Shown piece after piece: positions 25,622-30,863 of a DNA stretch of 64,000 nt. Each line of letters begins with the position of its first letter. The stretch's first letter is position 1. A program made the position numbers and the translations under genes. The DNA is taken from contig JAHFRU010000014.1 of NCBI GenBank assembly GCA_023266115.1, positions 1 through 64,000 on the forward strand, read 5' to 3'. The notes beneath the pieces are model-generated. The model made no database searches, was not told where the DNA came from, and saw only the letters and a program-made list of their open reading frames with translations. This stretch comes from Gammaproteobacteria bacterium (GTDB lineage: Bacteria; Pseudomonadota; Gammaproteobacteria; VBWC01).

Positions 25622-27313
25622 CTAAACGCGGCGGCGTATCCCGACGCCTGCCGTTCCAGCGGCAATCATCAGGAAGAAAAGCTCGAGCAATCCGAACGCG
25701 CCGGTAACAGCGTCGGGCGATGTCCCGGTCGACGCCGACGCTACGTCGCTGGATCCGGCCGTGCTGCCTGCCGGACTGCTGGTCGTGGAGGACGTATCGG
25801 TACCGGTCTGCGCGACGGTAGTGGTATTCGTCGTACTGCCGCCACCGGTTTGCGCAACAACCCCGACTGGCAACTCGAATTTTGCCGAAAAAATCTCCGC
25901 TGTATTGTCACTGTTAGAACCTGCGAGGTCCGCAGCGGTGTAAAAAAACGCGGTGGCGCCGTCGGCGGAAACTTTTGCCTTGATGTAGTTACGTTCCTGA
26001 TCCGCATGGGTCAGCTGGGTAAGCCCCGTACCGTCACTGCGAATCGCGAAGATCTGCTGGTAATTCCCGGTGCTTATTCCGTCAGCAAGGAGTGACTCCG
26101 ACGAAAAAATGACCACGCTACCGTCTGCCGAAATACTCGGCCATTGCGCGTCATCATTTTTGTCATCGCCAAAGGTAAGCTGTGTCAGGCCGCTACCATC
26201 GCGCTTGACGACGAAAATGGCGTCGGCCAAGGCTGCATTCGTCCCGGGAATTCCGTTTGCCGGATCGCCCCATGGATTGATGCATGCTGAAAATGCGATC
26301 CGGGTACCGTCGGCCGAGATGCTGGCCTGGAACGACTCTTCCTGTGATATATGGCCAGGTGCGACGATATCCGTATCCGTCACCTGAACGACGTAATCGG
26401 CCCGGTTGCCGCCGGCGGTCAGATAACCGGCGAGATCAAACACAAAGATCTCGTCGCTTCTATCATCATTCAACGGCGGTGTCAGATCCTGGAACGAGTC
26501 AAAAGCAACGGTTGTACCATCCGCAGAGATCACCGCATTGCGGGAGGCGTCATCTCGAATATAGTACCCGGCGCCCTGCGGTATCGGCGAACCCACCGTG
26601 AGCTGCTTCAGCCCGGTACCGTCCGCGCGGATGGCAAACAACTCCTTGGTATTATCCGTATTTTCCCCGAGCGGGTCACGATTGGATTCAAACACGATAA
26701 CGCTTCCGTCACCGGAAATGTCGGGTTTCAAGGCATAGTCACCGACGCCGTGGGTCAGTTGTTTAAGACCGGTGCCATCGGTATTCATCACGAAAATCTG
26801 CGGCTGTGGATAATACTGCGTAACGGTTATAGGTTGAGCATTCTCGTCAACGGTATCGACGTTGATAACTTCCGGCGGATTTTCGCCGGTAAGATCCGAC
26901 GACGACTCGAACACCACCACGGAACCATCCGCCGACAACTTGGGGTAGCGCGCATCACCGCTGGTCGTATGGGTGAGCTGCCGCACCCCGGTTCCGTCGC
27001 TGTTCATCACAAAGATACTGTAGATCGCCAGAGGATTCTGCCCGGCTACCAGATCGGCATCGGAACTGAACGCTATCGTGGACCCATCCGCCGACACACT
27101 GGGGTAGAACGCGCCCAAAGCATAGCTTCGGGGGTCGACAGGATCGTTAGGGTCTAACGGCAGCGGTGGCGGCGTGAACGCCGTCAGCTGCACTATCGAA
27201 GGCGCTTCCGTCGCGAATACGGGCGAAGCAACCGCCATCAATAGCGCCACACCGGCGACAAACAGTCTGGAAGCGCATTTGTCCGTCATCTGATCCCCCG
27301 GAATACCTGGCAT
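25622..27313 (-). CDS. Secreted TolB-like PD40 beta-propeller protein with C-terminal TM plus RRR tail
   Basis: Repeated 'ISADGSTIAFSSDADL...IFVMNSDGTGVRQLTH' units; Ser/Thr-rich linker; C-terminal 'GAFGLLELFFLMIAAGTAGVGIRRRV'. Likely start at an internal Met (MTDKCASRLFVAGVALLMAVASPVFA). Confidence 0.85.
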   Translation of the reverse strand: MPGIPGDQMTDKCASRLFVAGVALLMAVASPVFATEAPSIVQLTAFTPPPLPLDPNDPVDPRSYALGAFYPSVSADGSTIAFSSDADLVAGQNPLAIYSIFVMNSDGTGVRQLTHTTSGDARYPKLSADGSVVVFESSSDLTGENPPEVINVDTVDENAQPITVTQYYPQPQIFVMNTDGTGLKQLTHGVGDYALKPDISGDGSVIVFESNRDPLGENTDNTKELFAIRADGTGLKQLTVGSPIPQGAGYYIRDDASRNAVISADGTTVAFDSFQDLTPPLNDDRSDEIFVFDLAGYLTAGGNRADYVVQVTDTDIVAPGHISQEESFQASISADGTRIAFSACINPWGDPANGIPGTNAALADAIFVVKRDGSGLTQLTFGDDKNDDAQWPSISADGSVVIFSSESLLADGISTGNYQQIFAIRSDGTGLTQLTHADQERNYIKAKVSADGATAFFYTAADLAGSNSDNTAEIFSAKFELPVGVVAQTGGGSTTNTTTVAQTGTDTSSTTSSPAGSTAGSSDVASASTGTSPDAVTGAFGLLELFFLMIAAGTAGVGIRRRV

Positions 27314-27713: not shown

Positions 27714-28505
27714 ATGAAAGTACCGTCTCCCTTCGAGCATTTTGATCCGATACAGGGCGCCGCGCCGACCATTGGCGGTACCAATCTCGGCTACATCGCC
27801 ACGCGGGCGCGCAAAATACTGCAGCATCGCGACAGCGCTGCGGTCAAGTATGCGATGCCGACGCTGAACTGGATCCTGCACCAGGAGGACCGCGACCTGA
27901 TCGTTCGGACGATAACGCGGAAAAACGAGGACGCTTCGTATCTTTCGCCGACATTGATTTTGCGCTACCAGATGCAGCTGTTCGATATCTCCGGACAGAT
28001 AGAATTTCCCGATGCCACGTGGCCGGAGTATTTCGCCGTACTGTCGCTCGCGTTGGTCGGAAACGTGTACCGGCCGCCACTCGCGTTGCGTAGCAACAGG
28101 AAGTTGAGCGAATCCGAGATCAGCATCCGCTTCCGCGAATATGCCGGGCAGTTAAGCACCGATGCCATGGAGGCCATATGTTTTGCGGAATTGTTACTGG
28201 AAAAGACCAGCCAGGCTGCGGAGCATGATCCCGACGGTCAAATTCGCATTGCAGATTCACTCGACGACGTTGAGACCTTTGAACAACGTGAACAGTTGAA
28301 ACTCGATTTTCTCGCGTTCTTCCTCGCCAAGAAATTCAAGAGTTTTACCGATGCGGCGCATGCGTATCTAAAGCAACTCGGTCCCGAAGAAAAAAAGGCG
28401 GTACAGAATTCAACGGCCATAGCAACCTTGGCAGACGCGCTGCGGGCGTTTGAAGAACGCAGCCGCGCCTTCGAAGACCGCCTGAACAAATCGCAGTACC
28501 CGTAG
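27714..28505 (+). CDS. Hypothetical protein
   Basis: ORF 27624..28505; plausible start ATG at 27714 (MKVPSPFEHFDPIQGAAPTIGG); helical, no family recognised. Confidence 0.6.
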   Translation: MKVPSPFEHFDPIQGAAPTIGGTNLGYIATRARKILQHRDSAAVKYAMPTLNWILHQEDRDLIVRTITRKNEDASYLSPTLILRYQMQLFDISGQIEFPDATWPEYFAVLSLALVGNVYRPPLALRSNRKLSESEISIRFREYAGQLSTDAMEAICFAELLLEKTSQAAEHDPDGQIRIADSLDDVETFEQREQLKLDFLAFFLAKKFKSFTDAAHAYLKQLGPEEKKAVQNSTAIATLADALRAFEERSRAFEDRLNKSQYP

Positions 28506-28527: not shown

Positions 28528-29749
28528 TTAGCGAGGACCCGGCTCTGAACCAGAGCCGTCATCAGCATCGCCTATGCCGCCGTAGTATCGCTGCGCCAGC
28601 GCCCAGGCGTCCTTGCCGACCCGCGCACAAGTATCCAGGCCACGCCGATCATCCACCTCCACGTGAATTCCTCCCCATAATCGCGAAATGCCCGCCTCAT
28701 CCGCGGCATCGTAGAACGATGCCCATTGCAACACGATATCCTCGGTCGGGCCAATCTCGAAGTGGCGAAAATGGTCCCGTGGCGCACGCTTCTCTCCCAG
28801 CCGCCCGGAAAGTACTTGCTACCGGTAAACTCGGTCAATACCTCGGCACCCGCACGACTGAACGTGCTGTGGCCGGACACATGTCCTGCAAACGGCGGCG
28901 TCACGAAGGTGTTGCGCTGGTACGGCGCCCATGCCACGGCGCGTTGCCATTTCGCACCGCTGAACTCATGCTCGACGTCCCCCGGCTGGCCGGGCCACGT
29001 AATTATCGCGATCCCGCCTTCATGCCCCTCCAGATCGTAATGGCGGGCGCCAGGCGCCGTCGTGTCTCGCGTAATGACCTCGACCAAACCGGGGACCAGC
29101 GGCAACCCGTCGGGGTGATACACCGGCAGCGCCGGGGTCGCGGATTGTCCGAGACCGCCCATATAGCGGGTGGCGGAGATCGGCCCTCTTCCCCCGATTC
29201 TCTCCACAAGGGGATGATCGCTGACGTAGTTGGCAAGCGTGTTCCAATGCCCCGGCGGGGTTTCCGATGACGGCCCGTCCGCCCAGAACTCGGCGAGCAC
29301 GCGCCCGTAATCACGGTGTTTAACGATGTTGAGCTCGTAGGACTTGCCGGTGTACGGATTCGCGGTATAACCGTGACCGTCGTTATTTCCCAGCGTATTG
29401 CTGCCCTTGGAACGCGGCGAATCACGGCAAGCACATGCTCGTTCCAGCGACCTGCCACCGACCAGCGTTCGTCATCAACGAGAACCGGCAGGCCCGTAGC
29501 AGCGGCGTCCTTCGTTGCGGACACGACCGGCGCGGTCGCCGGTGCCAGCGCTGACGGCGGCTCGGCCGGTGGCTGTGTTAGTTCGACAAGCAACGCGAAT
29601 CCGATGACCCCGACGACCAGCAGCAAAACGATAACCTTCGGCACGCCAATCCTATGGCCAGGCTGGCGATGCTGCTGCGCGAGGTTTGCTTCGTTCGATT
29701 GATCCGGCACCGGTAGTGCGGTCAAGAATCCGGTAAACTGCCCCAACAC
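28528..29749 (-). pseudogene. Vanadium-dependent haloperoxidase-like protein, frameshifted and internally deleted
   Basis: Frame 1 (about 29425..29749): TM plus 'ERWSVAGRWNEHVLAVIRR'. Frame 2: 'NTLGNNDGHGYTANPYTGKSYELNIVKHRDYGRVLAEFWADGPSSETPPGHWNTLANYVSDHPLVERIGGRGPISATRYMGGLGQS...YHPDGLPLVPGLVEVIT...PPFAGHVSGHSTFSRAGAEVLTEFTGSKYFPGGW'. Frame 3: 'APRDHFRHFEIGPTEDIVLQWASFYDAADEAGISRLWGGIHVEVDD...GKDAWALAQRYYGG'. Confidence 0.85.
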
Positions 29750-29758
29750 CCGGACGCG

Positions 29759-30223
29759 CTAGTTTTCAAAACAGATTTCCACGAAGAAAACCCCCGTGTC
29801 GACGGTGAACGGCAGGATGATCTTGGGGCCCCGCGATTTGTGATCGACTACGTGGTTCTTGCCCGACACCACCGCTGGCAGCGCCATATCGAAATCATAA
29901 CCCTGGTCACCCAGCAATTTTTTAGCGCCGCCGGAGACCATGTTGATGATCTCACCAACCAGATCGGTCACCGTCGCATCGACGCCCGCAGGTTCTTCAT
30001 TCAGCATGCGTTTTGCGATATCCAGGATCACCGGTTCCGGAAACGAAATCGCGATCGACCCCCGGGCCTTGCTCCCGGTCATACCGATGATGCCAGTGAC
30101 ATCGCCGCGCGATACGTCGCCCTGTTTGACCGCCGGGCGACCGGGCTTGGCATCAATCTTTGCCATGGTCGACAGGACGTTCAGTATGGACACCAAAATC
30201 GGATTAACAAATTCTACGTTCAC
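29759..30223 (-). CDS. cheX: CheX-like chemotaxis phosphatase
   Basis: 'EFVNPILVSILNVLSTMAKIDAKPGRPAVKQGD...DVTGIIGMTGSKARGSIAISFPEPVILDIAKRML...VTDLVGEIINMVSGGAKKLL'. Confidence 0.88.
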   Translation of the reverse strand: MNVEFVNPILVSILNVLSTMAKIDAKPGRPAVKQGDVSRGDVTGIIGMTGSKARGSIAISFPEPVILDIAKRMLNEEPAGVDATVTDLVGEIINMVSGGAKKLLGDQGYDFDMALPAVVSGKNHVVDHKSRGPKIILPFTVDTGVFFVEICFEN

Positions 30224-30541: not shown

Positions 30542-30793
30542 TCAGCAGGCCGACGCACAAGCGCGGAACTCCGCCTCGCAATCGGCATTTTCTTCCCTGG
30601 ACCCGTCACCGTGCGCCACGCATGTCGGGTAGGCGTCAGTACAGCTGGCGACACAGGACGATTTGGTCGGTTGCTCGGGCGCGGCGGCTGGCTCAGATGT
30701 CGTCGCTACTGCATCCTGATGAACAGGATTACCGCCGCAAGCCGTGACAAACAGGGTGACAAACGCAATCACAACGATGGCTTTCGTTTTCAT
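30542..30793 (-). CDS. Putative small Cys-rich lipoprotein
   Basis: 'MKTKAIVVIAFVTLFVTACGGNPVHQ' lipobox-like; C-terminus 'KSSCVASCTDAYPTCVAHGDGSREENADCEAEFRACASAC'. Confidence 0.6.
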   Translation of the reverse strand: MKTKAIVVIAFVTLFVTACGGNPVHQDAVATTSEPAAAPEQPTKSSCVASCTDAYPTCVAHGDGSREENADCEAEFRACASAC

Positions 30794-30863
30794 TTCCCCC
30801 TCGCGAACACATTTGTATCTTGGCGTCCCGCAAGGCACGGGACGTGAACACAGAACAGCCGTA

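Follow-up and report, generated by a model that had tools for sequence, protein, structure and literature searches.

A Vanadium Haloperoxidase-Like Gene in a Gammaproteobacterium: a Very Probable Unitary Pseudogene with Decay Predating a Species Split

The stretch of gammaproteobacterial DNA analyzed here (64,000 nucleotides, hereafter the window; contig C40 of a 3.1 Mb genome in 46 contigs, 98% complete) contains what is very probably the unitary pseudogene of a vanadium-dependent haloperoxidase-like protein, secreted or anchored in the membrane, from the PAP2/VHPO superfamily, and its decay very probably predates the split from a sister species. Relative to intact homologues, the locus carries two long deletions (A and B), a 3-bp loss, and a frameshift (C). 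A first-pass annotation, made from a reading of the sequence alone, had correctly spotted both the missing catalytic segment and the dead gene.

Organization of the Remnant

The remnant occupies approximately 1.2 kb of the minus strand and is flanked by a CheX-like gene (29759-30223) and by an ORF of 263 amino acids (27714-28505) that is convergent relative to it. It aligns to vanadium-haloperoxidase-like proteins as three minus-strand pieces, which do not share one common frame. The N-terminal piece (29418..29749; WSVAGRWNEHVLAVIR), delimited by frame translation and by tblastn with residues 70-85 of the homologue L006, comprises a membrane anchor or signal segment and the start of the enzyme. 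The middle piece (28800..29418), which runs from SPRSKGSNTLGNND to KYFPGG, is homologous to L006 residues 326-571 according to the homologue alignment. A long open frame of 299 aa persists here, which counts against the pseudogene reading. The C-terminal piece (28528..28801) lies in a different frame.

The direct homologues are uncharacterized bacterial proteins of about 615-650 aa that combine the DUF6851 and VCPO_2nd domains, and the alignment with them extends along the length of the middle and C-terminal parts. The nearest intact relative is L006, from a Dadabacteria MAG (60% over the gapped middle part). Whereas these proteins are intact, the window copy is short of approximately 46% of the L006 coding length. 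On the other side of the CheX-like gene, a small, Cys-rich, lipoprotein-like ORF (30542-30838) was observed, with only a sub-threshold match to Pfam DUF1459.

Loss of the K-x6-RP Segment

The translation SDHPLVERIGGRGPISATRYMGGLGQS, in which an internal deletion of the K-x6-RP motif had been suspected, is indeed what the minus-strand frame encodes. At the joint of deletion B (29180..29181, minus strand), GGG CCG is followed directly by ATC TCC at 29181/29180, and two sites that lie 114 bp (38 codons) apart in intact relatives are fused, with the loss of the segment that contains W-D-V-K and K-x6-R-P. Compared with L006, the window lacks 38 residues, from VVDDQEWDVK to KRKYDYVRP, together with one K/H/R a few residues upstream. 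The latter is the K/H/R of LEKRIGG, which was removed by an in-frame 3-bp loss 21 bp upstream of deletion B (29199..29204, minus strand, leaving LVE-RIGG).

The 200-aa middle piece was used as the query to retrieve 68 loci from many phyla. Since the peptide patterns used for retrieval fall outside the missing segment, the sampling was not biased towards it. The homologues match over approximately 239 aa, compared with 200 aa in the window. Together with four intact members of the class, 67 of these loci give 71 independent genes (the raw tally was 72 loci, but L084 and L085 cover overlapping parts of a single gene); the remaining locus, L070, belongs to the sister genome. All 71 genes retain the segment and carry K-x6-RP, as the first-pass annotation had stated for relatives. 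The motif is missing only from eight loci, each of them a piece of the sister genome. In addition, every intact homologue having GP (37/37) shows a spacing of exactly 114 nt between GP and the RP of K-x6-RP. A natural short variant among the homologues was thus rejected, none of the 71 genes lacking the segment. A relocated motif was likewise rejected, with no K-x6-RP in any of the three minus-strand frames between 28500 and 29800, so that the motif is absent from the rest of the gene. Neither of the two outcomes that the first-pass annotation had named as refuting it was therefore found.

As the first-pass annotation had suggested, the borders of the segment were searched for direct repeats in intact homologues. 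Repeats of 0-9 bp were found there, mostly of 3-5 bp where present, and no long repeat occurs. The 114-bp loss may plausibly have arisen by slippage, with the GP and RP codons supplying the short stretches of identity.

Cofactor-Binding Residues

In the PDB, a profile built from 15 intact homologues finds vanadium chloroperoxidase and enzymes of the NapH type, including Curvularia inaequalis VCPO (1idq), NapH1/NapH3 (3w35/8cxl), 9ptr, and 4cit. In the profile search, the K...RP stretch is aligned residue by residue with 8cxl (NapH3), 9ptr, 9l8x, and 3w35, and the VCPO_2nd match of L006 (Pfam, residues 383-419) approximately coincides with the segment that the window lacks. In Curvularia VCPO, vanadate is held by Lys353, Arg360, Ser402, His404, and Arg490, with His496 as its axial ligand (PMC10278073). 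The missing lysine and arginine correspond to Lys353 and Arg360 when counted by profile offset, with the K-x6-RP stretch ending at residue 367.

Like vanadium-dependent haloperoxidases, the remnant keeps the SGH motif (28869..28877, minus strand, within HVSGHS) and the SRx5Hx3D motif, which includes the axial histidine (28651..28686, minus strand; SRLWGGIHVEVD), but the latter is in a different frame from SGH. In contrast to these enzymes, the window gene has frameshifts and lacks both the K-x6-RP segment, with its vanadate-binding lysine and arginine, and most of the N-terminal half, including the N-terminal helical domain (DUF6851 in Pfam, present in L006 and L014).

Loss of the N-Terminal Half

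A second gap, suspected between VLAVIRR and NTLGNND, proved to be real. At the joint of deletion A (29410..29425, minus strand), L006 residues 86-325 (some 240 codons) are absent between VLAVIR and SPRSKGSNTLGNND, the spacing in the window giving a loss of approximately 724 bp relative to L006 and a change of frame. The DUF6851 domain falls inside this deletion and is wholly lost. The simplest account of the upstream change in frame is that deletion A itself produced it. The view that loss of sequence was independent of the frameshifts therefore holds for the 114-bp segment, which was removed in frame, but most simply not for the ~724-bp gap.

Shared and Private Lesions in the Sister Species

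The same locus is found in G001 (VBWC01000014.1), a gammaproteobacterial MAG and the sole other genome of the order that was compared, with 92.7-95% nucleotide identity. G001 has the identical 114-bp joint and the identical 3-bp loss, lacking the same codon. Deletion B is thus not sequencing or assembly noise, because the sister genome has the same joint. Deletion A is probably also common to both species, although in the sister its joint fell within a further deletion of 134 bp. This deletion corresponds to 29303-29436 in the window (ends ambiguous by a few bases) and spans the deletion A site. The corresponding region of the window (29289..29438, minus strand) has imperfect direct repeats of 16 bp at its two ends (29438-29423 and 29304-29289, 12/16 identical), and only 4 of 63,800 positions across the window give an equally good repeat match at that spacing. 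Other lesions private to G001 are a 1-base gain (after 29157), a 1-base loss (at 28936), and a TAA stop.

Frameshift C (28800..28801, minus strand), where the window has one base fewer than G001, is private to the window genome. Since it is absent from the sister, frameshift C alone could reflect either an error or a recent change; in favor of an error, the difference is a single base in a G/C-rich run. That sequencing or assembly error also took out the catalytic segment and created the frameshifts at large is, nevertheless, barely credible: the 114-bp and 3-bp losses are identical base for base in another genome whose surrounding sequence diverges by several percent, and a clean in-frame loss of 114 bp is atypical of base-calling.

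Two further differences between the genomes were observed. At 28624-28644, a scrambled stretch reads GGCCTGGATACTTGTGC in the window and GGCCGCATACTCGGTGC in the sister (GLDTCARVG versus GRILGARVG), which looks like a 1-base insertion and a 1-base loss that cancel each other. The second lies at 26835-27155, within the PD40 beta-propeller gene (25622-27313), where insertions of 6, 9, and 6 bases that keep the frame separate the window from the sister.

Substitution Pattern and Loss of Constraint

Between the window and G001, substitutions in the remnant fall on codon positions 1/2/3 in the numbers 15/23/24, with no excess at the third position (p=0.42 for a test of its share against one third), compared with 4/4/36 in the CheX-like gene and ORF 27714-28505. 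The remnant has 44 nonsynonymous and 18 synonymous differences, versus 9 and 35 in those two neighbors (Fisher p=5e-7). The dN/dS values of the three remnant pieces are 1.93, 0.75, and 0.52, while those of the CheX-like gene and ORF 27714-28505 are 0.06 and 0.08, and that of the PD40 gene is 0.26. Purifying selection acts strongly on the flanking genes and has been lost from the remnant. The neutral substitution pattern between the remnants, together with the joint shared with the sister, supports real gene death rather than noise, as the first-pass annotation had held.

Overall divergence is, however, below expectation. It amounts to 5.8% over the remnant (28531-29749) and 4.2% in its middle part, which is about half of that at neighboring fourfold sites (10-12.5%) and is not predicted by simple neutrality over the whole period since the species split, even though nonsynonymous and synonymous changes are in balance. 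Because both kinds of site are low, constraint would be a less likely explanation than local variation in rate or recombination between the two lineages.

The low divergence could also be read as the mark of a natural short variant, that is, a non-catalytic VHPO-derived protein with a role kept after loss of the motif. The in-frame nature of the 114-bp and 3-bp losses agrees with such a protein, as does the combined length of deletion A and the 134-bp deletion in the sister (858 bp), which is divisible by three. However, codon-position bias is absent, lesions that disrupt the frame are present in both genomes, and no other homologue is missing the segment, which makes this reading very improbable. 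Hardly more probable is a related course, in which the shortened protein held a non-catalytic role temporarily after the 114-bp loss and then died independently in each species; if true, this temporary role would account for the below-neutral divergence.

Proposed Course of Decay

With regard to the pseudogene reading favored here, the common ancestor of both species would have lost the 114 bp bearing the K-x6-RP segment, in frame, as well as the 3 bp, and approximately 724 bp of the N-terminal half was most likely lost in the same ancestor. Judging from what is known of the family, vanadate would no longer be held in the known way without the lysine and arginine of K-x6-RP and the surrounding helix, and so the gene would have drifted, each species then acquiring its own frameshifts and deletions. 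A different order, in which deletion A or a frameshift killed the gene first and deletion B followed as a neutral event still before the split, is only somewhat less probable than even: both deletions appear to predate the split, two genomes cannot resolve their sequence, and nothing specific counts against it. The verdict of gene death is unchanged either way.

With its ancestral deletions common to both species, its later frameshifts and deletions specific to each, and its neutral substitutions, the locus resembles other bacterial unitary pseudogenes formed by deletion, and nothing about it is unusual among them. Such pseudogenes are ordinary and general knowledge is unchanged, but the locus provides a small, clear example of stepwise gene decay across two sister species, whose remnant fragments may be reported as separate genes by automatic annotation.

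Distribution

A profile search found no second copy in the window genome, and the reading that a second intact copy exists there was rejected. No intact orthologue was found within the order, both genomes compared being broken. In the class, intact relatives are present in 4 of 367 other genomes, and the enzyme is a patchily distributed accessory type.
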